39,885 nt of DNA from Candidatus Zixiibacteriota bacterium (GCA_016926795.1 JAFGNW010000079.1:1-39885), one strand, 5' to 3'; positions 13,095-27,344 are shown, counted from the stretch's first letter. Program-made: numbers and translations. Notes: a model not told the origin generated them from the sequence alone.

Positions 13095-13859
13095 ATGGGG
13101 TTTAACTTGAACTCAGTTTACGGCACCGGAATGAGCTTGATAAGCGTCAATACCTCGCTGTCAACCATGCTTCGCTCGATGGAAAAGTTGTCTTCGGGTC
13201 TGCGAATCAACCGGGCTTCCGACGATCCCGCCGGTCTGGTTATATCCGAACAACTGCGCTCTCAAATAGCCGGTCTGAATCAGGAGATTGAAAACCTGTC
13301 GGCCTCTATTAATAAATACGAAACCGCTACCTCAACTGTCAGTTCGCTGAGGTCTTCCCTGACCGAAGTGCGGACGATGGCTCTGGCCGCCGCCAATGAG
13401 GGCTTTTTAAGCGATGATACCCGGGCGGCTTATGCCGCCACGGCGGAAAGTATGACGGAAGCTTTTAACGAGACGGTGCAAAACGCCGAGTTTAACGGGA
13501 TGAAACTCCTGGATGGTTCCGCGGGAGCGCTGGCCGAAGTGGCCGAACTGAGCGGAATCGACCTGTCCTCGGCCGAGGCGGCGGCGCAGTCGGTCGAGGT
13601 TATCGACCAGGCTGTCAAAGACCTTGACGCTGTTCAGGTGGATTTAGCCGTCACCCAGAAGAACGACCTGGAAAGCCGCCGGGTAACTCTCGAAATTACC
13701 CGCGAAAACCTTACGGCTGCGGAATCCCAGGTAAGGGATACCGATTACGCTCTGGAGGTTTCCAACTTTATAGGAAGTATGATTCGAACCCAGGCTTCCC
13801 TGGCGATGCTGACTTATTCGAACATCTCCGGGGCGAGCATTTTGAAATTATTTGAGTAA
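13095..13859 (+). CDS. fliC: Flagellin, minimal (D0/D1 only)
   Basis: Structural subunit of the flagellar filament, exported by the flagellar type III system. The 254 residues contain the conserved N-terminal D0/D1 region (MEKLSSGLRINRASDDPAGL, then ISEQLRSQIAGLNQ) at about residues 29-60. The C-terminal D1/D0 region (ITRENLTAAESQVRDTDYAL) starts near residue 195, and the protein ends in a helix like that of other flagellins. Only about 60 residues separate the two D1 parts, so the variable outer D2/D3 domains are missing and the filament surface should be plain. AAGGAGG precedes ATG 13095. The gene stands alone between its own sigma-54 promoter and a strong terminator. A hook-associated FlgL-type protein is less likely because both ends match flagellin closely. 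Confidence 0.9.
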   Translation: MGFNLNSVYGTGMSLISVNTSLSTMLRSMEKLSSGLRINRASDDPAGLVISEQLRSQIAGLNQEIENLSASINKYETATSTVSSLRSSLTEVRTMALAAANEGFLSDDTRAAYAATAESMTEAFNETVQNAEFNGMKLLDGSAGALAEVAELSGIDLSSAEAAAQSVEVIDQAVKDLDAVQVDLAVTQKNDLESRRVTLEITRENLTAAESQVRDTDYALEVSNFIGSMIRTQASLAMLTYSNISGASILKLFE

Positions 13860-14413: not shown

Positions 14414-14442
14414 TTGACTATCTTATTTGTTTAAATTATAAT
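14414..14442 (+). promoter_or_regulatory. Sigma-70-type promoter of the serS operon
   Basis: TTGACT (14414-14419), 17 bases, TATAAT (14437-14442): a near-perfect housekeeping promoter. Transcription would begin near 14449, about 46 bases before the serS start. Confidence 0.8.
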
Positions 14443-14494: not shown

Positions 14495-15763
14495 ATGCTT
14501 GATTTGAAATTCATAAGAGAGAATCCGGAACTGGTTAAAACCGGGGCGGTTAAGAAAAACGAGAAAAAATGTAACGTTGACCTGATTCTCGACCTGGACA
14601 ACCAGCGTCGGGATATAATTCGCGAAGTGGAACAACTGAAAAGCGAGCGGAACCGGGTTTCGGGCGAAATCGCCAAAAAGAAAAAAGCCGGTGAACCGGC
14701 TGAGGATACAATTGCTGCCATGCGGGACCTGGGTGAAAAAATACAAAACCTGGATAACGACCTCAGGGATATCGAGACCAGATTGAATGCCGAGCTGGCC
14801 TGGGTGCCCAATATCCCTCACGATTCGGTTCCGGTTGGCAAGGACGAGAGCGCCAATATTGTCGTCCGTGAATGGGGCGAGATAAAAAAGCCCGCCTTCA
14901 AGGTCCTGCCTCACTGGGAAATAGGAGAGAAGCTCGGTTTGCTCGACCTTCCCGCCGCCGCCCGTATATCCGGATCCGGTTTTTACCTGTTAAAAGGTGC
15001 GGCCGCGCAACTTCAACGGGCTCTTATAAACTATATGCTGGATTTGCATACCTCCGACGGTTACCGGGAAATCTGCGCCCCCTTCATCGTCAACGCGGAC
15101 ACCATGTTCGGCACCGCCCAACTACCCAAGATGGATGAGGATATGTATAAAACCGAGGGGGACGGCCTGTACCTTATACCCACTGGCGAGGTGCCCTTCA
15201 CCAATATTTACCGCCAGGAAATAATCGATGTTGATTTACTGCCGCTATACCTGGTCGGTTATACGCCCTGTTTCCGCCGCGAAGCCGGGGCGGCCGGGAA
15301 AGACACCCGCGGCATGCTGCGGGTGCATCAGTTCGACAAGGTCGAGCTGGTGAAAATCGTGCGACCGGAAAATTCCTACGAGGAATTCGAGGGTTTGGTC
15401 AACCAGGCCGAGAAAGTCATCCGGGGTCTCGAAATCCCCTACCGGGTCAGCCTGCTGTCCACCGGGGATATGACTTTCGCTTCCCGCAAAACCTATGACA
15501 TCGAAATCTGGTCGGCGGGGGTGGAAAAGTATCTGGAGATTTCGTCGATTTCAATCTTTGAAGATTTTCAGGCCCGACGGATGAACTGCCGGTTCCGCGA
15601 TAAAGACAAAAAGGTGCAGTTCGTACATACCATGAACGGCTCTGGTGTCGCCCTGGCGCGACTTATTCCGGCTATCCTGGAAAATTATCAAAACGAGGAT
15701 GGGACGGTCACTATCCCGGAACCCCTGCGGCCGTATATGAAAGGAGCGGACCGAATAACCTGA
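14495..15763 (+). CDS. serS: Seryl-tRNA synthetase
   Basis: Class II aminoacyl-tRNA synthetase charging tRNA-Ser (and tRNA-Sec where present), cytoplasmic. It has 422 residues, the normal length. The N-terminal 110 residues form the antiparallel coiled-coil arm (VEQLKSERNRVSGEIAKKKK). Motif 2 is seen as CFRREAGAAGKDTRGMLRVHQF, split here only by description, and motif 3 as GSGVALARLIPAILENYQ. Upstream GGAG has good spacing to ATG 14495. Its TGA shares one base with the following kinase ATG, so serS heads the long operon. Confidence 0.97.
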   Translation: MLDLKFIRENPELVKTGAVKKNEKKCNVDLILDLDNQRRDIIREVEQLKSERNRVSGEIAKKKKAGEPAEDTIAAMRDLGEKIQNLDNDLRDIETRLNAELAWVPNIPHDSVPVGKDESANIVVREWGEIKKPAFKVLPHWEIGEKLGLLDLPAAARISGSGFYLLKGAAAQLQRALINYMLDLHTSDGYREICAPFIVNADTMFGTAQLPKMDEDMYKTEGDGLYLIPTGEVPFTNIYRQEIIDVDLLPLYLVGYTPCFRREAGAAGKDTRGMLRVHQFDKVELVKIVRPENSYEEFEGLVNQAEKVIRGLEIPYRVSLLSTGDMTFASRKTYDIEIWSAGVEKYLEISSISIFEDFQARRMNCRFRDKDKKVQFVHTMNGSGVALARLIPAILENYQNEDGTVTIPEPLRPYMKGADRIT

Positions 15764-17013
15764 TGGAAAGGAAGTGGCGATACATAAGCCGGCCTTCGGA
15801 TCTCTATATCGGCAAATCCACCCTTTTAAAAACTTTTCTGCTCCTGGGCATTGTCGTTATCGCGGTGGTATTTATCTGGTACACATTCTCGGTTATCGAC
15901 TATCTCAAGGAGGACACCCGCTCCCAGGTGGAAAAATATGTTCGGCTCTGGCAACTGGCCGCCAATTCCCCGACTTCGGGTAACGAGCTTCAGTTCATTT
16001 TCAATGAAATTATCGTCAAAGCCACCTTCCCGATTATCGTTCTGGATGGCGACCGGGAACCGTTGTACTGGCGCAATGTCAAGGGGATTTCCGACGACGA
16101 TACCACCCGCAGCAGTTATCTCGAAATAAAAAAGAAAGTCGAGGCGATGAACCGCGATAACGGTGAATATCCCCTTTATTTCGGCGAGGGATATGTAAAT
16201 TATTTTTATTACGGTGATTCGGAAGTCATCAACCGATTGAAGATGATGCCCTTCATTGAAATTGGCATCGTGCTGGCTTTCATGCTGGTGGGTATAATCG
16301 GTTTTCAGAATATCCGCCGCAGTGAAGAACGGCATATCTGGGTGGGAATGGCCAAAGAAACCGCTCATCAACTGGGCACCCCCATTTCGTCGCTGATGGG
16401 CTGGCTGGAGATGCTGGAAGGTGACCCGGAAACGTTGCCGGGCGAGTCCCGGAAAATGCTCGACGAAACGATCGACAACATGAAAATCGATATTACCCGC
16501 CTCCAGAAAGTAGCTAAGCGGTTTGGGATGATCGGTTCGGTGCCGGAGCTCGAGGAAAGCGATTTGAATAAAATTATCGAAGAAGTGGTGGAATATTATC
16601 GCCGCCGCCTGCCCTTCCAGGGGCGGGGGATCCGGATAGATTTCAACGCCGGTGAAGTTCCCCGGGTACAGTTAAATCCCGAACTTTTCAGCTGGGTGCT
16701 GGAAAATATGATAAAGAACAGCCTCGAGGCGGTGGACTCCAAAACCGGTCGCATTGAGATAAGGACCGGACCCTCATTCGACAACCGGGGCGTGATTATC
16801 GAACTTACCGATAACGGCCGGGGTATAAGTAATGCCGCCGCTCGAAAAATCTTCCGCGCCGGTTTCACTACCAAAAAGCGGGGCTGGGGGTTGGGATTAA
16901 CGCTGGTGAAGCGCATCGTCGAGGAATACCATGTCGGGAAAATTTGGCTCAAAACATCCCGACCGGGAGAAACCGTGTTTGAGATAATGCTGCCCGTCAG
17001 GGCTAAAAAGTAA
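15763..17013 (+). CDS. Membrane sensor histidine kinase, likely partner of the PorX-like regulator
   Basis: Two-component sensor with 416 residues. One hydrophobic helix at about residues 24-42 and a second at about 164-184 flank an extracytoplasmic domain of about 120 residues. The H-box AKETAHQLGTPISSLMGW contains the phospho-acceptor His202. The ATPase domain has N-box ENMIKNSLEAV, G1 box LTDNGRGIS, an F-box (FRAGFTTKK) and G2 box GWGLGLTLVKRI. It is coupled to serS (one-base overlap) and followed nine bases later by a REC-PglZ regulator. The adjacency suggests it plays the part that PorY plays for PorX in Porphyromonas; that assignment is inference, since PorY and PorX genes are not adjacent there. 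Confidence 0.9.
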   Translation: MERKWRYISRPSDLYIGKSTLLKTFLLLGIVVIAVVFIWYTFSVIDYLKEDTRSQVEKYVRLWQLAANSPTSGNELQFIFNEIIVKATFPIIVLDGDREPLYWRNVKGISDDDTTRSSYLEIKKKVEAMNRDNGEYPLYFGEGYVNYFYYGDSEVINRLKMMPFIEIGIVLAFMLVGIIGFQNIRRSEERHIWVGMAKETAHQLGTPISSLMGWLEMLEGDPETLPGESRKMLDETIDNMKIDITRLQKVAKRFGMIGSVPELEESDLNKIIEEVVEYYRRRLPFQGRGIRIDFNAGEVPRVQLNPELFSWVLENMIKNSLEAVDSKTGRIEIRTGPSFDNRGVIIELTDNGRGISNAAARKIFRAGFTTKKRGWGLGLTLVKRIVEEYHVGKIWLKTSRPGETVFEIMLPVRAKK

Positions 17014-17022
17014 GGACAATTG

Positions 17023-18582
17023 ATGATACAAACGACCGCAAGCAAAAAAATTCTCTGGGTTGACGATGAAATTGATTCCCTGAAACCGCATATTTTGTTT
17101 CTGGAAAAGAAAGGATTCGAGGTGGACGGAGTCATGTCCGGCGATGACGCCATCGTGGCGGTGCAGAAAAATATGTACGATTTGGTCCTGCTTGATGAAA
17201 TGATGCCCGGCAAGGACGGTCTGACGACCCTGGAAGAAATAAAAGATATCCGCCCGCACCTGCCGGTCGTCATGGTGACCAAGTCGGAGGAGGAAAGCCT
17301 GATGGACGAGGCTATCGGCCAGAAAATCGATGATTACCTGGTCAAGCCGGTTATTCCCTCCCAGATTCTGCTGGTCATAAAAAGGATTCTCGACTCCAAA
17401 AAAATAATCAGCTCGTCTTCGATGAAGCGCTATATAGCCGAGATAAACCGGTTCAACCAGAAACTGTACGGCGACCTGAGTCCGGAGGACTGGTACGAGG
17501 CCGCCCGGATTCTGGCCTCCTGGGATCTGGAGCTGGACGAGAGCAACGACGTCGGTCTTTTTCAGACCCATGAGGGCACCAAGAAAGAATGGAACATCGA
17601 GTTCACTAAGTATATCGAGAAGGAATACACCCGCTGGCTGTTTTCGGATGACCGACCGGTCCTCTCCCCGGATGTCTCCGGCCGGTTTGTCGTGCCGCGC
17701 CTGAAGGAAAACAAAAAGGTGCTGTTCATCGTGGTGGACTGCATGCGCCTTGACCAATGGATGATGGTCGAGCCGCTTTTGGCGGAATTTTACAATATCG
17801 AGCGTCATTATTACTTTTCCATCCTGCCCAGCGCCACCCCGTTCGCTCGCAATGCCCTGTTCGCCGGGCAATTTCCCGAAGATATCCATGAAATTTACCC
17901 GGATAATTATAAGGTTCAGGATGAGGGTTCGCTGAACCGCTATGAAGACAAATTTCTGGAAGACAACCTCGCCCGCCGGGGGGTGCGACTTCAGAAACAG
18001 CTAAAGTACGTTAAAATATATAACAATACCGAGGGTGAGGAGCTGACCCGGAGGACGGCCGACTATTACGAAAGCCAGATTGCCACCTTCGTGTTCAATT
18101 TCCTCGATATCCTGGCGCACGGTCGCTCGAACAACGTTATCCTGAAAGAGGTGGCCGGGACCGAAGCAGCGTTTCGGTCTTTAATGAAGAGCTGGTTTAA
18201 CCATTCCCCGCTTTTCTCCCTTTTGAAAGCCTTCGCCGGGCGGGATTTTACGGTTATAATAACCTCCGACCATGGCTCGGTGCTGTGCAAGCGGGGTACG
18301 GTGGCGCACGGCCGTAAGTCCACCTCGACCAACCTGCGCTACAAATACGGCGACAACCTTAACTCCGACCTGAAAGAATCAATCCTGATAAAAAAACCCG
18401 AACAATGGCGCCTGCCGTCGTTTACCCTCGCCACTACCTATATTATCGCCAAGGAAGATTTTTATTTCGTGTATCCCAATAATTATAACGAGATGGTCCG
18501 GCAGTTTATGAATTCCTTCCAGCACGGCGGCATATCACTGGAGGAAATGGTGGTGCCGCTGGCCATATTAAATCCGAAATAA
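17023..18582 (+). CDS. porX: PorX-like response regulator with PglZ (alkaline-phosphatase-fold) output domain
   Basis: The 519 residues from ATG 17023 (AAGGA six bases upstream) start with a receiver domain: acidic pair D14/D15, phospho-acceptor D58 in LLDEMMPG, and lysine in DYLVKPV. A helical linker (about 125-225) follows, then a PglZ domain of the alkaline phosphatase superfamily. The PglZ domain has FIVVDCMRLDQW, the nucleophile region SILPSATPFARNALFAG, metal-ligand-like NFLDILAHGRSN, ITSDHGS and the VAHGRKST loop. This architecture and the LAHGRSN-type segment match PorX, the regulator of type IX secretion and gliding in Bacteroidetes. The well-known PorX sequences have LPTAT where this one has LPSAT. 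No type IX secretion genes are in the window. It is followed six bases later by tsaE. Confidence 0.9.
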   Translation: MIQTTASKKILWVDDEIDSLKPHILFLEKKGFEVDGVMSGDDAIVAVQKNMYDLVLLDEMMPGKDGLTTLEEIKDIRPHLPVVMVTKSEEESLMDEAIGQKIDDYLVKPVIPSQILLVIKRILDSKKIISSSSMKRYIAEINRFNQKLYGDLSPEDWYEAARILASWDLELDESNDVGLFQTHEGTKKEWNIEFTKYIEKEYTRWLFSDDRPVLSPDVSGRFVVPRLKENKKVLFIVVDCMRLDQWMMVEPLLAEFYNIERHYYFSILPSATPFARNALFAGQFPEDIHEIYPDNYKVQDEGSLNRYEDKFLEDNLARRGVRLQKQLKYVKIYNNTEGEELTRRTADYYESQIATFVFNFLDILAHGRSNNVILKEVAGTEAAFRSLMKSWFNHSPLFSLLKAFAGRDFTVIITSDHGSVLCKRGTVAHGRKSTSTNLRYKYGDNLNSDLKESILIKKPEQWRLPSFTLATTYIIAKEDFYFVYPNNYNEMVRQFMNSFQHGGISLEEMVVPLAILNPK

Positions 18583-18588
18583 TTTCCC

Positions 18589-19020
18589 GTGAGAGTTTTA
18601 AGTATCGTTTCACATTCCGAAAAGCAGACCATCGCCCTGGCTCATAAGCTGGCGCCTTCTTTCCAACGCGGGGATGTTATCTCTCTGAACGGCTCGCTGG
18701 GTGCGGGTAAGACCGTGTTCGTGCGGGGCCTCGCCGCCGCGCTTAAAATTGACGAGGCTGAGGTCAGCTCCCCCTCGTTCACTTTCGTCAACGAGTACCC
18801 GGGGGAACTGCCCCTTTATCATTTCGACCTCTACCGCATCAAGGACCCCTCGGAACTCTACGAAATCGGTTGGGATGAATACCTGGGACGAGAAGGCCTG
18901 GTCGTGGTCGAATGGGGAGAGAAGGCCGCCGATATGCTGCCGGAGCGTTATTACCAAATCGATTTTAAAATTATAAGTGAAAACGAACGCGAGATAAATA
19001 TTTCCTTGGTGCAGCGATGA
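18589..19020 (+). CDS. tsaE: tRNA threonylcarbamoyladenosine biosynthesis ATPase TsaE
   Basis: P-loop ATPase that works with TsaB and TsaD in making t6A37 in ANN-decoding tRNAs, cytoplasmic. It has 143 residues. The Walker A motif NGSLGAGKTVFVRGLA is at about residues 37-52, followed by SSPSFTFVNEY and the HFDLYRI motif, both characteristic of TsaE; VVVEWGEKA is the Walker B-like strand. The start is GTG 18589, six bases after the porX stop and without a clear ribosome site, so translation is probably coupled. The order porX-tsaE is, to my recollection, also seen in Bacteroidetes. Confidence 0.95.
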   Translation: MRVLSIVSHSEKQTIALAHKLAPSFQRGDVISLNGSLGAGKTVFVRGLAAALKIDEAEVSSPSFTFVNEYPGELPLYHFDLYRIKDPSELYEIGWDEYLGREGLVVVEWGEKAADMLPERYYQIDFKIISENEREINISLVQR

Positions 19021-19706
19021 CCGAAAAAGTCTATCAAAATATCCTGGCGGTCGATACCTCCAGCCTGTATTTGAGACTGGCCCTTCTGTTCGGAGGTGAC
19101 CGGTTGGTAAAATCCGATGAGAAGATGGACAAATCGCACGGGCAACTGATAATCAAAAAAATCAACGAACTCTTTTCCTCGGCCGGCCTGGCGGTCAGAC
19201 AGCTCGATGCCCTGGCGGTGTCAACCGGACCGGGCTCGTTTACCGGCTTGCGGATAGGCCTGGCGGTGGTTAAGGGAATAGCGGTGGCTCGGGATATCCC
19301 GATTGTCGATATTAACCTTTTCGAGTTAGCCGCGTTTAAACTTTCGGAGCGCCCGGAGCCGGTTAAAGTTTTCGTACCCTTTAAAAAAGGGGAGTTTTTC
19401 ATGGCCGAAGTTAAAAACGGTGAATACCTTCTTGAAAATATTACAGTTATTACCGAAAGTAATTTTTCCGAGAAAGTCGGCGGCAGTCCGGTCGCCGGAA
19501 TTAATTTCAATATTATCGACCACTTTCCACAGGCTGTCACTCTGCCCGGTCTGGCCGAAATCGGTTTTGATGCAGCGGATCTTGTTTATCTAGGTCGCAT
19601 TAAACTCGAGCAGGGTCAAAAAGCCGACCTGGCCGGGTTGGAACCTCTCTATCTTCTCAGGTCTCAGGCGGAAATAAAATTTGAAAAGCTTAGAAAGAAA
19701 AAGTAG
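19017..19706 (+). CDS. tsaB: tRNA threonylcarbamoyladenosine biosynthesis protein TsaB
   Basis: ASKHA-fold protein (229 residues) that dimerises with TsaD for t6A synthesis. The N-terminus ILAVDTSSLYLRLALL and the diagnostic STGPGSFTGLRIGLAVVKGIA-type motif (residues about 66-86) are present. It overlaps tsaE by four bases (ATGA) and is itself overlapped by the rimI frame. Grouping of tsaE, tsaB and rimI is widespread in bacteria. Confidence 0.95.
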   Translation: MTEKVYQNILAVDTSSLYLRLALLFGGDRLVKSDEKMDKSHGQLIIKKINELFSSAGLAVRQLDALAVSTGPGSFTGLRIGLAVVKGIAVARDIPIVDINLFELAAFKLSERPEPVKVFVPFKKGEFFMAEVKNGEYLLENITVITESNFSEKVGGSPVAGINFNIIDHFPQAVTLPGLAEIGFDAADLVYLGRIKLEQGQKADLAGLEPLYLLRSQAEIKFEKLRKKK

Positions 19707-20151
19707 GCTGAAATTCACGTTGCGGGATATGACATCAACCGACTTAAAGCCGGTGTTGGTACTGGAACGGAAAATTTTTCCGGATGCCTGGCCGGAATCG
19801 GCATTTCGGGAAATCCTTGAAGATGCTGATTGGTCGGCGGTTGTGGCGGAATACAAAGGAAAAATTATCGGCTATGCTATTTATTTGATTGTTCTCAATG
19901 AGTCGCACCTGGCCAATATCGCTGTCGATGAACCCTTCCGGAGAAAATCTGTTGCCAAACATCTTTTGGAACATATCTTAAAGGTCGTACAAGAGAAGAA
20001 ATGTGAGGTTATTTTACTCGAGGTCCGGGTTTCCAACCGGGAAGCCAGGGCTTTTTACGAACGTTTCGGTTTCAAGGAGTTGTATCGCCGAAAGAAATAT
20101 TACCGGGAGCCGGTCGAAGATGCCCTGGTAATGGCGCGAGCGCTTAATTGA
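19681..20151 (+). CDS. rimI: GNAT acetyltransferase RimI-like
   Basis: Acetyl-CoA-dependent N-acetyltransferase; RimI acetylates the N-terminus of ribosomal protein bS18 in E. coli. With TTG 19681 as start it has 156 residues; TTG 19720 and ATG 19729 are later in-frame options that would shorten it by 13-16 residues, and no clear ribosome site decides between them. GNAT features: FPDAWPESAF in the first helix pair, LANIAVDEPFRRKSVAKHLL (acetyl-CoA binding loop, with RRKSVA where the classic motif is Q/RxxGxG/A), LEVRVSNREARAFYERFGF, and YYREPVEDALVM at the end. The third position of the acetyl-CoA motif being Ser instead of Gly is slightly unusual. Confidence 0.9.
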   Translation: MKSLERKSRLKFTLRDMTSTDLKPVLVLERKIFPDAWPESAFREILEDADWSAVVAEYKGKIIGYAIYLIVLNESHLANIAVDEPFRRKSVAKHLLEHILKVVQEKKCEVILLEVRVSNREARAFYERFGFKELYRRKKYYREPVEDALVMARALN

Positions 20152-20165
20152 CGGCGAGTTGAGAT

Positions 20166-21008
20166 ATGGCCTGGTTCAGAAAAGAAAAAAGCGGTTTAGC
20201 CGCCCAGGAAAAGAAAAATATCCCCGAAGGATTGTGGACCAAGTGCCCCTCCTGCGGAGAGATTGTTTACAGCAAGAAGATGGAGGAGCTTTTCTGGGTC
20301 TGTCCCAACTGCCAGTTCCATTTTAAAATAGCGAGCCGTAAATATATCAGTATCCTTCTCGATGACGGTCAGCTCGAGGAATATGACCGCAACCTGTTCT
20401 CACTGGACCCTTTGAAGTTCAAGGATTCCAAAAAATATCCGGATCGCATCCGGGCCGCTCAGGAAAAATCCAAAACCAACGACGGCGTAATCGCCGGCAT
20501 GGGCAAGATGGGCGGGATTGATATTTCTTTCGCTATAATGGATTTTTCGTTTATCGGCGGTTCGATGGGTTCGGTGGTCGGGGAAATGATTGCCCGGGCT
20601 ATCGAGCGGGCTATTGACAGAGAAGTCCCCCTGGTGATAGTATCCTGTTCCGGCGGCGCCCGCATGCAGGAAGGTATCCTCTCGCTTATGCAGATGGCCA
20701 AAACCTCGGGTCTTCTGGCTGTTCTGGCCGAAAAGAAAATACCGTATATCTCGGTTCTAACCAACCCGACTACGGCCGGGGTAATGGCTTCGTACGCTTC
20801 GCTGGGTGATGTCATCATCGCCGAACCGAAAGCCCTGCTAGGTTTCGCCGGGCCGAGAGTGATTCAGCAGACTATCGGTCAGGACCTGCCCGAGGGTTTC
20901 CAATCCTCCGAGTTCTTTCTCGAAAAGGGTTTCCTTGATAAGATTGTTGAACGGAAAAAACTGCGGGAGACGGTTATCGCGCTCCTGCGTTATATGTGGA
21001 ATAAATGA
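20166..21008 (+). CDS. accD: Acetyl-CoA carboxylase carboxyltransferase subunit beta
   Basis: Subunit of the carboxyltransferase that makes malonyl-CoA for fatty acid synthesis. It has 280 residues. The N-terminal zinc ribbon is visible as CPSCG and CPNCQ (residues about 28-50). The crotonase-like core has DGVIAGMG, FSFIGGSMGSVVGE, the oxyanion-type VSCSGGARMQEG, TNPTTAGVMASYASLGD and LLGFAGPRVIQQT. accA is not adjacent. It is 14 bases after rimI and overlaps folC by four bases (ATGA). accD followed by folC is a common pair. Confidence 0.98.
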   Translation: MAWFRKEKSGLAAQEKKNIPEGLWTKCPSCGEIVYSKKMEELFWVCPNCQFHFKIASRKYISILLDDGQLEEYDRNLFSLDPLKFKDSKKYPDRIRAAQEKSKTNDGVIAGMGKMGGIDISFAIMDFSFIGGSMGSVVGEMIARAIERAIDREVPLVIVSCSGGARMQEGILSLMQMAKTSGLLAVLAEKKIPYISVLTNPTTAGVMASYASLGDVIIAEPKALLGFAGPRVIQQTIGQDLPEGFQSSEFFLEKGFLDKIVERKKLRETVIALLRYMWNK

Positions 21009-22287
21009 TGTCCCGACACGACTATGTCGCCGCTGAGAAATTCATCCTGTCCCGGGAATTTTTCGGGATGAAATTGGGGCTGCAGAATATAACCGAATTC
21101 CTGGATTCTATCGGCAATCCCCAGAGGCAGTACGCTACTGTCCACCTGGCCGGTACCAACGGCAAGGGTTCCACGGCGGCTATGCTCGATGCCGTTTTAC
21201 GCGCCCAGGGCTACCGGGTCGGTTTGTTTACTTCCCCGCATCTGGTCGATTTTCGGGAACGGATTAAAGTGAACGGGGAAAAAATCGCCAAACGAGCGAT
21301 TATTTCTTTTATTGACCGGTACCGCCGGGTACTGGTAAAAAAAAAGTCTCGTTTTTCGAGGTCGTGGCCGCTTTAGCCTTTGATTATTTCCGTCACAGCG
21401 GGGTCGATATCGCCGTTATCGAAACCGGCCTGGGCGGCCGTCTTGACGCCACCAACGTTCTCTCGCCCCTTTTGACCGTCATCACCGATATCAGCCTTGA
21501 CCATGTCGAAATACTCGGGGGCACCCTGAGCAAAATTGCCTACGAGAAAGCCGGTATTATAAAATCCGAGACGCCACACCTGATAGGTTTGTTGCCTCCC
21601 CCGGCGGAGAAGGTTGTTCGCCGCGTCTGTAAGAAAAAAAGAGCGCCTTTTTTCTGTCTGAACAGAAGAGATTTTCGCATATTTCCCAACCGGCTGAAAC
21701 TTGATTTTTCCTCGGACGGTCTGAAGTTCGACTCCCTGGCGCCGTCCCTGGTGGGGGTGCACCAGTTGAAAAACACCGCCCTGACCGTTAAAGCCCTGTC
21801 GATTTTAAGGGATTTCTACGGGTTGAAAATCTCCAGGACGGCTATCAAAGAGGGTTTGCAGCATACCGACTGGCCAGGGCGCTTTCAGGTTATAAAAAAC
21901 AACGGCCGGCCCACCCTGGTGCTCGATGTCTGTCATAACGCCGCCGGAGTAAGAGCTTTTGTGGATTCATACCGGGTCTTGTATCCCAACCGTAAGGCTT
22001 TTATTATAGCCGGTTTCGTCAAGCGCAAGGAGCATCAGTTGATGTTCGACGAATTGTCCCGTATTACCGGGGAAATATACCTTGTCCCCCTGAAGACCAA
22101 ACGCTCGATTGACATCGACGAATTGATGAGGACTATTAATTGGCGCGAACTTCGGGTGAAAAGATGCGGCAGCCTTAACACCGCCTATATAAAAGTCTTG
22201 AAAACAGCCGGGCCGGACGATATAATAAATATAATCGGCTCCCATTATTTGGTCGGTGAATTTCTTAAAAATTATATTTGGAAATGA
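21005..22287 (+). CDS. folC: Folylpolyglutamate/dihydrofolate synthase FolC, split by a -1 frameshift
   Basis: Mur-ligase-family enzyme that adds glutamate to folates. The gene is in two frames: 21005-21376 (N-terminal 123 codons, with the P-loop AGTNGKGSTAAML and FTSPHLVDFRERI) and a second frame open through 21346-22287 (from VSFFEVVAALAFDYF through ETGLGGRLDATNV to DVCHNAAGVRAF). Joined by a -1 shift at the nine-A run 21337-21345 they give about 427 residues, the normal FolC length with no missing segment. Causes: a missing A in the sequence, a real mutation, or programmed slippage. The second frame could start alone at GTG 21364, but would lack the P-loop. It ends overlapping the next kinase (ATGA). 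Confidence 0.92.
21337..21346 (+). other. Nine-A run with a slippery A-AAA-AAG in folC
   Basis: In the folC zero frame the codons are GTA AAA AAA AAG, so the heptamer A AAA AAG (21340-21346) is in the phase used for -1 slippage in E. coli dnaX. A -1 shift continues as GTC TCG TTT TTC GAG, restoring the FolC sequence. A small hairpin (CTCG, five T, CGAG) begins two bases later, closer than usual for a frameshift stimulator. Confidence 0.8.
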
Positions 22288-23675
22288 AAAACCAGAAAAC
22301 CAACAGCAAGAAAAAGAAAACATCCTCGAAAAAAACGACTTCGCCCGCGAAAAATACGAACGTCGAAAAAAACAGCGAGTCGGTAGCTTCGTTAAAGATA
22401 CAACTCGAAGAAAAAATCGCTCTTTTAACCGAGACCAACCGCCAGCTCAAGCGCAAGATTTTCGATTTATACACGATCTTTGAAATCAGCCGCAATTTTA
22501 ACGCTGTTCTGGACTATTACAATTTGCTCGATACGTTCATTTTCACCTGTCTGGGGCAGGTGGGGGCTTTGAAAGGGGCCATCTTTCTCAAGAAGGAAGT
22601 CCGCGGCGACCGGTTTTTTCTGGTGAAATCCAAGGGTTCGGGAGAGCTGCCCGAGCCGGAGCAGTTTTTCCGGACCGATTCCACACTGGCGCAGTATTTG
22701 ACCAGCCTTAACCGCCCGGTACCGACCGCCGAGGTGGCCTGCGATGTCGCCGAGCCGGACGAGGTGGCCATTGTCAAAATGTTCGAGCCGGGGATAATCG
22801 TTCCCCTGGTTTACCAGACGCGTCTGACCGGCATCTTTCTTATGTCGGAAAAAATATCCGGGCGGGAATTCCGGCTGGATGATATCGAATTTCTCTCCAT
22901 CCTGGGCAACCAGATTGCGGTGGCGATAGAAAATGCCCGCCTCTACGAGGGGGAAAAGATGGCTATCCAGCAGCTTCGCTCCGCCCAGCAGCAACTGGTG
23001 CAGACAGAGAAAATCGCCGCTCTGGGGGAGATGTCGGCCAAGGTGGCCCACGAGGTGAACAATCCCCTGGGCATCATCAAGAATTATATCCTGCTAGTTG
23101 AACGCGCCTGCCGGGATAACAAAGAGACCGAGGAATTTGTCGGCATAATCGGGGAGGAAATCGACCGTATCGCCCGCATCGTCAAACAGCTCCTTGATTT
23201 TCATCGTCCCGAAGGGGTAACTTTTCAGAAGGTCAACGTCATTCAGGTTATCAACGACGTCGTGACCCTCATGGAACGACAACTGGCCTCGCATAATATC
23301 GAACTGGTGAAAGAATTCGACGATTCCCGGCCGTATATCCTGGGCGCCCCGGAAAGCCTCAAACAGGTCTTTTTAAACCTGATCATCAATTCCCGCGATG
23401 TCCTGGAGAAGGGGGGCACTATTACGATCGAGGTAACGCCGACCGATAAAGAACTGCGTATAAATTTCAAAGATACCGGTCCGGGCATTCACCCGGATTA
23501 TATCCCGCGTATTTTTGAACCCTTTTTTACAACCAAAGAACTCGGGAAAGGCACCGGCCTGGGACTTTCTGTCTGCTATGGCATAATAAAAAACCATAAA
23601 GGGTCGATAACCTTTAAAAACCTGAACCCCGGAAGCTGTTTCGATATCCGGTTCCCGTCACTTTTTGAAGAGTAG
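22284..23675 (+). CDS. Cytoplasmic GAF-domain sensor histidine kinase
   Basis: Soluble sensor kinase with 463 residues from ATG 22284. The first 35 residues are rich in Lys, Ser and Thr; a coiled coil follows (about 36-65), then a GAF domain (about 70-220, ending LGNQIAVAIENARLYEGE). The HisKA domain contains AKVAHEVNNPLGIIKN with acceptor His256, as in NtrB-type kinases. The ATPase domain has LNLIINSRDVLE (N-box), FKDTGPGI (G1), FEPFFTTKE (F) and GTGLGLSVCYGI (G2). There is no membrane segment, so the signal is intracellular. It is four bases before the end of folC and five bases ahead of the REC-GAF kinase, so the two are probably made together. The signal cannot be told from sequence. Confidence 0.93.
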   Translation: MKNQKTNSKKKKTSSKKTTSPAKNTNVEKNSESVASLKIQLEEKIALLTETNRQLKRKIFDLYTIFEISRNFNAVLDYYNLLDTFIFTCLGQVGALKGAIFLKKEVRGDRFFLVKSKGSGELPEPEQFFRTDSTLAQYLTSLNRPVPTAEVACDVAEPDEVAIVKMFEPGIIVPLVYQTRLTGIFLMSEKISGREFRLDDIEFLSILGNQIAVAIENARLYEGEKMAIQQLRSAQQQLVQTEKIAALGEMSAKVAHEVNNPLGIIKNYILLVERACRDNKETEEFVGIIGEEIDRIARIVKQLLDFHRPEGVTFQKVNVIQVINDVVTLMERQLASHNIELVKEFDDSRPYILGAPESLKQVFLNLIINSRDVLEKGGTITIEVTPTDKELRINFKDTGPGIHPDYIPRIFEPFFTTKELGKGTGLGLSVCYGIIKNHKGSITFKNLNPGSCFDIRFPSLFEE

Positions 23676-23679
23676 TAAA

Positions 23680-25821
23680 ATGAGCTCCGCGACCGAGAAA
23701 ATAATTATTATCGACGATGAAAAGCGCATGTGCGATTCCCTGACCGCCCTCCTGGAAGGTGAGGGCTACCTTGTGCAGAGTTTCCAGCAGTCCCCGCTGG
23801 CCGTCGAAGTCATCCGCAACGAAAAAGTTGACCTGGTAATCACCGATATCAAGATGCCGCAGATGGACGGCCTGGAAATATTGAGGGTTGTCAAGGAGAT
23901 TGATGAAGATATCCCGGTTATCCTGATGACCGGCTATGCCTCGCTGGACACCGCTGTCGATGCCATCGCCCGGGGAGCTTATGATTACCTGATGAAACCG
24001 GTAGAGTTTACCTACCTGGAACTGGCCGTCAAACGGGCGCTGGATAAACGCCGTTCGGAACTGGCCCGGCTGCGGCTTCTGGAGGAGTTGAAACTTTCCA
24101 ACCTGATTCTGCAGCGCCGGATAGGCGAACTCAACGCTCTCTACGAGGCGGGGAAATCCATCGGTTCCTCGGCTAACCTGACCGAACTGCTCCGGCAGCT
24201 GGTAGCCCTGGCCTCGACCGTGACCGAGGCTAAAACCGGTTCGATAATGCTTCTTGACGAACGCAAGGAATACCTGACAATAGAAGCGGCTATCGGACTC
24301 GATGACGAGGTAATCAAAAGCACCCGCCTGCCGATCGGGGCATCTATCGCCGGTTTCGTGGCCAAAACCGGCGAAGCTATTATTGTCGATGATGTCGAAA
24401 GTGATGACCGTTTCAAACGTATCAACCGCGAACGATACCAGACCACCTCGCTTTTGTGCACACCGCTGCGGATAAAAAATAACATCCTGGGCGTTATCAA
24501 TATGTCCAATAAGGAGAACAACCAGCAGTTTACTTCCAATGACCTGCGCCTGCTGACCACTTTTGCTTCCCAGGCGGCGGTGGCGGTTGATGATGCTTAC
24601 CAGTTTGAGAAAAACCGTCGGCGACTGGTCGAGTTCCAGATTCTGCACGAAATTTCCGGCGAATTACCGAGTATCGATTCCTGGACCGATTTCGGTGATT
24701 TGCTGGTAAAGAAACTTTCCCGTCTTTTTTCAGTCGAATATGCTATCCTGTTTTTTTGGGACCGGAATATGAGAATGCTGCTGCCCGATGGGGTGGCCGG
24801 TAAAACCGATATTCCCCTCACCGACAGCGGTAAAATCGACCTGCGTAAAATCGACCGCACCAGCATTTCCCTGTCTAATATCGACCTCGAAGAATTCGAC
24901 TTCGAGGACATCCCCCGGCTTTCCCTGCTGCTGGGCGAAAACCTGGGCGGCAATGAAAATTTCCCCTCTCCCAAACAGGCCTTTATGGCTATTCCGATTA
25001 TGAAAAGCGGCGAGCTGGCTTATATCTTTTACCTGGGTTCGGACCGTGACAAAGCTTACAGTGATGAGGATATCTCCCTGGCGAAACTGATCGTTTCCCA
25101 GGCCACTCTTCTTTTCGAGAAGGAAAAGGCTATACTCAACGCCACCCGCCTTTTGACCATGGGCAATATGATTTCGGAGATATCCCATGATTTGCGTAAA
25201 CCTCTGACCTCGATAAAGGGCGGATTGCAGATTATCAAACAGCGCATTCCCGATGATATAAACGGTTCCGATTTCTTTAGAATGGTCGAAGATGAAATTC
25301 ACCGGATGAACGAACTGGTTCGGGAACTGGTCGATTTTTCCAATCCAAATAAATATGAGACCGAGAAGGTAGACCTGCAACAACTGATCAAAAGAGCCTC
25401 GGAACTGGTCAAACCGGATTTGCGCAAACAGAACGTAACTTTCGAAACCGATTTCGAGAGCATCAACTGGGAAATGATTGTCAATAAAAACCAGATTCTG
25501 GAAGTGTTCCTGAACCTATTTATTAACGCCATCGGGGCTATGCCCGACGGAGGCACCCTGACCGTCAAAGGCCTTATAGAAAAACCCCGGCATAAAGACA
25601 AGGATTTTCAGGCGATAAAAGTACTCGACACCGGCGTCGGTATCAAAAAAGAGAACCTTCCCCGTATTTTCGAGCGCTATTACACTACCAAGGAATCCGG
25701 TACGGGTCTGGGCTTGTCGGTTGTGGAGAGGATTATTTCCGCCCATGGCTGGTTTTGCCGAGTGGAATCAACCGAAGGCCGGGGAACGACTTTTTCCATT
25801 TATATTCCCCTTGACAACTAG
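23680..25821 (+). CDS. Hybrid signalling protein: receiver, two GAF-like domains, histidine kinase
   Basis: 713 residues from ATG 23680 (a TTG at 23665 is in frame but lies inside the previous gene). Domains in order: receiver (1-120; D12/D13, acceptor D56 in ITDIKMPQMDG, lysine in YLMKPVE); a short helical link; GAF (about 150-310, with LASTVTEAKTGSIMLLDE and ending FASQAAVAVDDAYQFEKN); a second, more divergent GAF-like domain (about 315-480); HisKA with ISEISHDLRKPLTSIKGG (acceptor His503); and an ATPase domain with FLNLFINAIGAM, LDTGVGIK, FERYYTTKE and GTGLGLSVVERI. A receiver at the N-terminus followed by a kinase suggests it accepts phosphate from the upstream GAF kinase and relays or tunes signalling to the NtrC-type regulator that follows. 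Confidence 0.92.
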   Translation: MSSATEKIIIIDDEKRMCDSLTALLEGEGYLVQSFQQSPLAVEVIRNEKVDLVITDIKMPQMDGLEILRVVKEIDEDIPVILMTGYASLDTAVDAIARGAYDYLMKPVEFTYLELAVKRALDKRRSELARLRLLEELKLSNLILQRRIGELNALYEAGKSIGSSANLTELLRQLVALASTVTEAKTGSIMLLDERKEYLTIEAAIGLDDEVIKSTRLPIGASIAGFVAKTGEAIIVDDVESDDRFKRINRERYQTTSLLCTPLRIKNNILGVINMSNKENNQQFTSNDLRLLTTFASQAAVAVDDAYQFEKNRRRLVEFQILHEISGELPSIDSWTDFGDLLVKKLSRLFSVEYAILFFWDRNMRMLLPDGVAGKTDIPLTDSGKIDLRKIDRTSISLSNIDLEEFDFEDIPRLSLLLGENLGGNENFPSPKQAFMAIPIMKSGELAYIFYLGSDRDKAYSDEDISLAKLIVSQATLLFEKEKAILNATRLLTMGNMISEISHDLRKPLTSIKGGLQIIKQRIPDDINGSDFFRMVEDEIHRMNELVRELVDFSNPNKYETEKVDLQQLIKRASELVKPDLRKQNVTFETDFESINWEMIVNKNQILEVFLNLFINAIGAMPDGGTLTVKGLIEKPRHKDKDFQAIKVLDTGVGIKKENLPRIFERYYTTKESGTGLGLSVVERIISAHGWFCRVESTEGRGTTFSIYIPLDN

Positions 25822-25919
25822 TGCATTTTTTTGCGAAAAAACGGCAAATATATTGAAAAATTAGCTTGATTTATCCTGTCGTATGCCGATACTTTTATAT
25901 GAATTGGTAACTTACGAAT

Positions 25920-27344
25920 ATGGCAAAGATTAAGACAAAAGTACTGGTCATTGACGACGACCCCAAAGTCTCCTGGATATTATCCGAAGGGCTCGCTTCG
26001 AATTTCGAGTTCGTCTCGGCCCGGGACGGTATTGAGGGGATTCAGATGGTTTCCACCGAGAAACCGGATTTGATTCTGCTGGATATAAAAATGCCGGGTA
26101 TGACCGGGCTCGAAGTACTGGAAAAATTGAATAAACTCGACACGCGCCCGGAAGTTATTATGATTTCCGGCCATGGCGAGACCAGTTACGTCGTCGACTC
26201 AATGAAACACGGTGCGGCTGATTTTATCAATAAGCCCTTTGAAGTCAGAGAAGTCGAGATTCACATTAACAACGTCATGGAGCGCAGCCGGCTCAAAAAG
26301 GAAGTCACCGAGCTGAAAAAAGAGCTGCAATCGAAAAATGTTTACAATAGTTTTATCGGTGATTCCGAGGGTATGCACAAGGTCAAAGCCATTATCGAAC
26401 AGGTGGCCAGTTCTGAATTATCCGTGTTGATTCGGGGTGAGTCGGGTACGGGTAAGGAAATAGTCGCCCGCTCCCTGCACGAACTTTCCAACCGCAAGGA
26501 CCAGCCTTTTGTAAAAGTCAACTGCGCGGCAATCCCCCGCGACCTTCTGGAATCGGAGCTTTTCGGTTATGAAAAAGGCGCCTTTACCGGGGCGCACAAA
26601 AACAAGCAGGGCCGCTTTGAACTGGCCAATTTGGGTACTATCTTTCTCGACGAAATCGGTGATATGCCCCTGGAACTGCAGTCAAAACTGCTGCAGGTAC
26701 TCGAACAGCAGGAATTCGTTCGGGTCGGCGGTATTAATAATATCCATGTCGATGTCCGGATTATCTGCGCCACCAACAAAAATCTGGAACAGGCGATCAA
26801 CCAGCAGTTTTTCCGGGACGACCTCTTTTACCGGCTGAATGAGATAACCATCTTCCTGCCCCCCCTTAGGGACCGGAGGGAGGATATTCCCCTGCTGGTA
26901 AATCATTTTCTCGATAAATACAATAATCTTTATAATAAAAAATTCTACCAGTTCTCGCCCGAGATCATCAACCGGCTGGTAAGTTTCGAATGGCCGGGTA
27001 ATATCCGCCAGCTTGAAAATATGGTCAAGCAGGTGGTGGTCCGCGAGGATGAATCGATTATAGTTGAGCTCATCGCATCCGCCCACAGCCAGGGGATAAA
27101 TGTAAACTTCACCCAACCCCAGACCGTCAACAATCCCCAACCGGTAGCCGTCAATTCCAATCCCGATGATTTTTCTCTAAAAAACCGGGTGGGTAAAACG
27201 GTCGCCGTGGAAGAAAAGCGGCTTATCGCCGAGGTTTTGAACAAAACCAACTGGAATCGCCGAAAAGCGGCGGAATTGCTTCAGATTAGCTATCGTTCCC
27301 TGCTGTACAAAATAAAAGATTACGACCTGAACGTCACCAAATAA
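25920..27344 (+). CDS. NtrC-family sigma-54-dependent response regulator
   Basis: 474 residues in the classic three-part order. Receiver at 1-120 with D12/D13/D14, acceptor D55 in LLDIKMPGMTG and lysine in FINKPFE. AAA+ domain at about 145-385 with Walker A GESGTGKE, the sigma-54-contacting GAFTGA loop, Walker B TIFLDEIGDMP, the sensor segment RIICATNKNLE and the arginine finger region FRDDLFYRLNE. Fis-type helix-turn-helix at the C-terminus (NWNRRKAAELLQISYRSLLYKI). It activates sigma-54 promoters when phosphorylated. It lies 98 bases after the hybrid kinase, its probable partner. ATG 25920 has no obvious Shine-Dalgarno. The target genes are unknown; the flagellin promoter in this window is one candidate. 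Confidence 0.96.
   Translation: MAKIKTKVLVIDDDPKVSWILSEGLASNFEFVSARDGIEGIQMVSTEKPDLILLDIKMPGMTGLEVLEKLNKLDTRPEVIMISGHGETSYVVDSMKHGAADFINKPFEVREVEIHINNVMERSRLKKEVTELKKELQSKNVYNSFIGDSEGMHKVKAIIEQVASSELSVLIRGESGTGKEIVARSLHELSNRKDQPFVKVNCAAIPRDLLESELFGYEKGAFTGAHKNKQGRFELANLGTIFLDEIGDMPLELQSKLLQVLEQQEFVRVGGINNIHVDVRIICATNKNLEQAINQQFFRDDLFYRLNEITIFLPPLRDRREDIPLLVNHFLDKYNNLYNKKFYQFSPEIINRLVSFEWPGNIRQLENMVKQVVVREDESIIVELIASAHSQGINVNFTQPQTVNNPQPVAVNSNPDDFSLKNRVGKTVAVEEKRLIAEVLNKTNWNRRKAAELLQISYRSLLYKIKDYDLNVTK

Follow-up and report, generated by a model that had tools for sequence, protein, structure and literature searches.

In Porphyromonas gingivalis, the response regulator PorX and the histidine kinase PorY are encoded by unlinked orphan genes, and because the loss of porY is milder than that of porX, a further kinase for PorX has been suggested. 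PorY (PGN_2001) has 395 residues, with transmembrane (TM) segments at 14-36 and 149-173 and its histidine at H193 (PMC5005315). The P. gingivalis rPorY autophosphorylates and then phosphorylates PorX (PMC4800418), and gain-of-function changes affect S241 and S266 (PMC7712824). PorX binds PorL (PMC5005315) and has a PglZ domain that acts as a zinc phosphodiesterase (PMC10951265); the published nucleophiles, T271 in Flavobacterium johnsoniae and T272 in P. gingivalis, are the second threonine of the motif LPTAT.

Here we describe a locus of Zixibacteriota in which a porX gene directly follows a kinase gene. We interpret it as a PorY-PorX two-component system controlling type IX secretion and encoded by adjacent, probably co-transcribed genes, a reading to which we assign a probability of roughly 0.85. 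The two-component system itself is known, but apparently neither its occurrence in this phylum nor the kinase-porX operon nor the conserved succession of porX and tsaE has been reported: among the open papers of a limited library, we found none on Zixibacteria with a type IX secretion system (T9SS) or on PorX with TsaE.

The locus and its regulator

The window, i.e., the whole stretch of 39,885 nucleotides that was analysed, belongs to a Zixibacteriota genome of 3.29 Mb that is 88.5% complete. From position 14495, a tight run of genes on the plus strand comprises serS, a membrane histidine kinase, porX (REC-PglZ), tsaE, tsaB, rimI, accD and folC (Table 1). A strong sigma-70-like match is a candidate promoter for this serS-led operon. 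The genes are closely packed: serS and the kinase start overlap by one base (TGATG), 9 bases separate the kinase from porX, and 6 bases separate porX from tsaE. A sequence-only reading of this DNA had placed a two-TM kinase nine bases upstream of the regulator, inside a serS-to-tsaE operon; the coordinates were confirmed and the arrangement recurs in the phylum (29 of 30 genomes). The porX frame starts at ATG 17023, with TTG 17020 also in frame, and stops at 18582.

Table 1. Features of the serS-led operon, in window coordinates.
Feature	Position	Strand	Evidence
Sigma-70-like promoter TTGACT-17-TATAAT, candidate operon promoter, upstream of serS	14414..14442	+	consensus scan only, 11/12 positions
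serS, serine--tRNA ligase, first operon gene	14495..15763	+	TIGR00414 503.8 bits, cut-off 301.7
porY-like membrane sensor histidine kinase, 416 aa	15763..17013	+	HATPase_c 67 bits, HisKA weak
Kinase TM segment 1, about aa 19-47	15817..15903	+	hydropathy; helix 18-67 in low-confidence model
Kinase extracytoplasmic sensor loop, about 112 aa	15904..16239	+	between both TM segments
Kinase TM segment 2, about aa 160-183	16240..16311	+	hydropathy
H-box AHQLGTP, phosphoacceptor H202, Gln not Glu/Asp at H+1	16363..16383	+	invariant in the profile of 16 kinases
AAGGA, likely porX ribosome-binding site	17012..17016	+	direct sequence reading
porX, REC-PglZ response regulator, 519 aa from ATG	17023..18582	+	NF052313 648.7 bits, cut-off 300
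REC phosphoacceptor Asp, D58 from ATG, D59 from TTG	17194..17196	+	alignment to F. johnsoniae D54 and P. gingivalis D58
LPSAT; last residue T273 (TTG numbering), catalytic Thr, intact	17824..17838	+	alignment to T271/T272
tsaE, t6A-synthesis ATPase	18589..19020	+	TIGR00150 116.3 bits, cut-off 60.1
tsaB, overlaps tsaE	19017..19706	+	TIGR03725 126.2 bits, cut-off 69.3
rimI	19681..20151	+	TIGR01575 124.5 bits, cut-off 86.4
accD	20166..21008	+	TIGR00515 382.6 bits, cut-off 317.5

Judged by its sequence, the product of this open reading frame is a genuine PorX. It matches the curated equivalog model NF052313 over its full length (model positions 2-513 of 513) and aligns end to end with the solved PorX 7pv7 (phmmer E 2e-136). 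Like the PorX of P. gingivalis and F. johnsoniae (PDB 7pv7, 8p6f, 8ted), to which it is 44% and 42% identical, respectively, it has a full-length REC-helical bundle-PglZ architecture. The phosphoacceptor aspartate, the switch lysine (K109 in TTG numbering, aligned to K104 of F. johnsoniae and equivalent to Lys108), the catalytic threonine and the contact made by Tyr332 in P. gingivalis PorX are all kept. So are 7 of the 7 zinc ligands (D240, T273, D417 and H418, together with D363, H367 and H502; TTG numbering), and in the alignment to solved structures the metal-site residues match one for one those published for F. johnsoniae. The recognition, from the DNA alone, of a REC-PglZ regulator with D58 and a PorX-type metal site was thus borne out by the model score and by the residues aligned with solved PorX.

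The same reading had singled out LPSAT, in place of LPTAT, at the presumed nucleophile. Because the catalytic residue is the second threonine of LPTAT, this change, two residues before the nucleophile, leaves it untouched: S271 is not the nucleophile and the threonine that follows is intact. The variant PSAT was found in 8 Zixibacteriota and one Bacteroidota PorX among those sampled. Apart from this motif, the regulator differs from its P. gingivalis and F. johnsoniae counterparts in belonging to another phylum and in being encoded directly behind its kinase gene.

In a quick tree of 50 PorX, which had no non-PorX REC-PglZ outgroup, a branch with support 100 sets off the Zixibacteriota sequences from the Bacteroidota PorX, which include both solved ones; the phylogeny called for earlier therefore does not place the regulator outside the PorX clade. 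To catch both phyla, named genomes were scanned with a hybrid query that joined the N-terminal part of the window PorX to the C-terminal part of that of F. johnsoniae. The window PorX is 70-77% identical to PorX on contigs named Candidatus Zixiibacteriota (L043, L045, L068, L095), and a few contigs with an equally close PorX are labelled Calditrichota, Ignavibacterium or 'bacterium'. PorX is above cut-off in 118 of the 132 genomes of the phylum. A PglZ protein of BREX systems, which has the PglZ domain in common with PorX, was considered and rejected: NF033449 gave only 114 bits, well short of its curated threshold of 250, the neighbouring genes include none of BREX, and a REC domain is present. 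Apart from the window PorX, the genome search returned no PglZ protein.

From its gene content, the genome that carries this locus encodes a type IX secretion system. The search for sov and for T9SS C-terminal domains proposed in the sequence-only reading returned SprA/Sov at 560.5 bits (cut-off 200) and 40 matches to the C-terminal sorting domain (Por_Secre_tail). The SprA gene is adjoined by selA (L310, L311; contig C203), with a selB-like GTPase, recognised by eye only, close by; selenocysteine machinery is likely.

Linkage and co-occurrence of the kinase with PorX

In further porX loci of the phylum, the kinase gene lies directly 5' of porX in 29 of 30, at 44-64% identity, and tsaE lies 3' of porX in all 30. 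The kinase-porX-tsaE arrangement is thus found far beyond chance. All 8 further contigs of Zixibacteriota type, named or labelled, likewise have the kinase beside porX, and one of these contigs ends within porX and so shows no tsaE; serS precedes the kinase in the 7 named loci of this type that have enough flank.

The association extends to genomes in which the two genes are apart. The kinase and porX genes of Bacteroidota are not linked; one genome has the kinase gene behind tig-clpP-clpX, some 10 kb away from porX, and in Flavobacterium sp. SLB02 the orthologue occupies about 4,527,836-4,528,933 of NZ_CP045928. Ten Bacteroidota genomes, searched with a profile built from 16 Zixibacteriota kinases, each yielded a single full-length relative that scored 269-300 bits, with the runner-up kinase in each genome at 110 bits or less. 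Across 118 Bacteroidota genomes, the profile matched once each in 92 and had no match in 26, and PorX was above cut-off in the same 92; in an order represented by 77 genomes, kinase and PorX were both present in the same 10. The negatives of these two draws (26 and 67) come mostly from one order and so amount to few independent losses. Among 256 Bacteroidia, 244 have both proteins, 4 have PorX only (one a fragment), 3 have the kinase only and 5 have neither (Fisher p 8e-7). Kinase and PorX distances correlate with r 0.93 over 79 genomes, which reflects mainly shared descent. The kinase family, including the single-copy kinases of Bacteroidota, forms one clade with support 98/98, apart from NtrY-like kinases. 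These patterns in sequenced genomes support the view that the adjacent kinase behaves as the partner of PorX.

Two assemblies in this material look anomalous. One labelled Lentimicrobium (G132; L102 / L131) carries a PorX 85% identical to that of F. johnsoniae together with a Flavobacterium-like kinase, and is mislabelled or contaminated. In CP070777 (G140; L123, L134), the kinase gene is split, with one half at 1.15 Mb, the other at 2.39 Mb and masked bases bordering each, i.e., a misassembly or an effect of masking.

Relation of the kinase to PorY

The kinase follows the published layout of PorY. Both have two TM segments, a loop of similar length (about 115 residues in P. gingivalis PorY vs about 112), a histidine about 20 residues after the second TM segment and about 200 residues from this histidine to the C terminus; it is H202 of 416 residues here and H193 of 395 in PorY, and the gap from TM2 to the histidine is 17-25 across the window kinase family. 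The soluble part of the window kinase covers about aa 184-416. In PorY, the two serines hit by gain-of-function changes lie at H+48 and H+73. In Bacteroidia members of the family, the serine of RFxxIGS, equivalent to S241, is a serine in 43 of the 50 that can be aligned and falls at H+48 in 28 of the 50, the most frequent spacing, and a second serine stands 25 residues beyond it, at the position of S266, in 44 of the 50. Zixibacteriota members keep the IGS serine in 28 of 29 alignable sequences and have a proline at the S266 position. The genomic context differs, with porY about 1000 genes from porX in P. gingivalis and 9 bases between the two genes here. No Porphyromonas genome was among those sampled, the nearest PorX being 65% identical (G472). 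The window kinase is most likely the orthologue of PorY, as judged from published coordinates rather than from an alignment to PGN_2001. The PorY-PorX-like pair proposed from the DNA alone is supported by linkage in the phylum, co-occurrence in Bacteroidota and fit to the published topology.

This identification is at odds with the NCBIfam model named for the kinase, NF052314 ('T9SS_HK_PorY'), against which the window kinase scores 46.3 bits, far under the cut-off of 350, and its Bacteroidota relatives up to 52. The kinases that do match NF052314, a set from Bacteroidota, are likewise HisKA/HATPase membrane kinases, but they form a separate clade (100/99) with the H-box SHELQTP. They are a poor fit to the published PorY because their gap from TM2 to the histidine is 69-70 (vs about 20) and because they have a leucine at H+48. 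They are also found above cut-off in Bacteroides ihuae, which is PorX-negative. This suggests that NF052314 marks a kinase clade other than the real PorY and is possibly mis-named; being in wide annotation use, it would then label the wrong kinases as PorY.

Alternatively, the kinase could be the partner of PorX without being PorY, i.e., a second, more widely conserved 'other sensor kinase'. NF052314 is above cut-off in only 25 of the 118 Bacteroidota genomes, whereas 92 have PorX and a member of the window kinase family. The milder phenotype of the porY deletion in P. gingivalis has led authors to propose an additional kinase. We nevertheless regard this alternative as unlikely, since the published coordinates of PorY agree with the window kinase family but not with NF052314, and since the 162 PorX and 162 PorY homologues counted over the classes of Bacteroidetes (Emrizal 2020, PMC7323717) suit the former and not the latter. 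The first of these reasons also speaks against an entirely new 'missing' PorX kinase other than PorY, a reading that was considered and then demoted.

With the kinase taken as PorY, the main value of the locus lies in independent support for a disputed PorY-PorX pairing: a kinase linked to porX in an operon of another phylum is genetic evidence, obtained separately, that this kinase family is the cognate partner of PorX.

Most HisKA kinases have a glutamate or an aspartate at H+1. In the window family, the H-box is invariant in the profile of 16 kinases and shows conservation of 97% or more across 79 homologues from two phyla, so that an invariant glutamine in place of the usual acidic residue appears to be an oddity of this family. 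The signature AHQ[LI]GTP, RFxxIGS, RGWGLGL is usable to find the PorX partner in any T9SS genome, including those of model gliders such as F. johnsoniae. The AlphaFold model of the kinase is weak (pLDDT 63.8, pTM 0.46); its sensor loop may be a small alpha/beta domain with a PAS/PDC-like order of elements (block pLDDT about 49-83).

Gene neighbours and proposed mechanism

The genes that surround the pair, together with a reported action of PorX on oligonucleotide signals through PglZ, had suggested a link to tRNA and translation status. Gene order is the sole basis for this link in the data, and Bacteroidota share this order. There, tsaE comes after porX in nearly every named locus of Bacteroidia and in 19 of the 20 loci analysed from other classes; in many of the latter, tsaB and accD come next. 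In contrast, serS is a neighbour in Zixibacteriota only, and neither serS nor rimI is a neighbour in most Bacteroidota loci. The porX-tsaE order predates the split of the two phyla or a transfer between them. Since this order is conserved in Bacteroidota too, the translation-linked neighbours represent an inherited, old synteny and give no evidence for a translation signal; on these data, a functional tRNA link is unsupported and the conserved order is a lead rather than evidence. The finding of the pair in a second phylum indicates that PorXY control of the T9SS is older than Bacteroidota or was shared between phyla.

The conservation of porX-tsaE-tsaB could still reflect a functional coupling, in which control of the T9SS through the oligonucleotide phosphodiesterase of PorX is tuned to t6A modification of tRNA or to translation capacity, but we consider this improbable. 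A stronger version, in which the pair lost or never had a role in type IX secretion and links t6A or translation status to an oligonucleotide signal via PglZ, is more improbable again. It would account for a porX-tsaE order conserved across two phyla and for the presence of serS, tsaE, tsaB and rimI in one operon. Against it stand the T9SS translocon and 40 cargo-type domains encoded by the genome, the absence of serS and rimI from the vicinity of porX in most loci of Bacteroidota, where PorX controls the T9SS, and the inclusion in the same run of accD and folC, which are not translation genes. The least probable account is that the kinase serves another regulator and adjoins porX incidentally, since the lack of linkage in Bacteroidota, which speaks for it, is outweighed by neighbouring kinase and porX genes in 29 of 30 Zixibacteriota genomes (44-64% identity), by single-copy co-occurrence with PorX in another phylum and by the correlated distances (r 0.93, mostly shared descent).

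As a PorY-PorX system, the pair would work as follows. Both proteins would be made from one messenger. The PorY orthologue would sense a periplasmic cue through its loop of roughly 112 residues and autophosphorylate on H202, and the phosphate would then pass to the receiver aspartate of PorX. Phosphorylated PorX would dimerise, its zinc-dependent PglZ domain becoming an active phosphodiesterase, and would act on the T9SS through the PorL/GldL motor, gene expression or both, as described for Bacteroidota. The phosphodiesterase activity, dimerisation and PorL/GldL binding of PorX are published for Bacteroidota proteins, and by analogy we infer them here.

The flanks of the operon hold further genes of interest. 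Just before serS, at 13095-13859 of the window, lies a flagellin gene with both flagellin domains, so that this T9SS genome also has at least one flagellin. At the end of the run, folC is present as two overlapping reading frames (21005-21376 and 21364-22287), indicating a frameshift or an assembly error. It is followed, at 22278-27344, by consecutive genes for a GAF-HisKA kinase, a REC-GAF-HisKA hybrid kinase and, at 25920-27344, an NtrC-type sigma-54 regulator, which make up a second signalling cluster.
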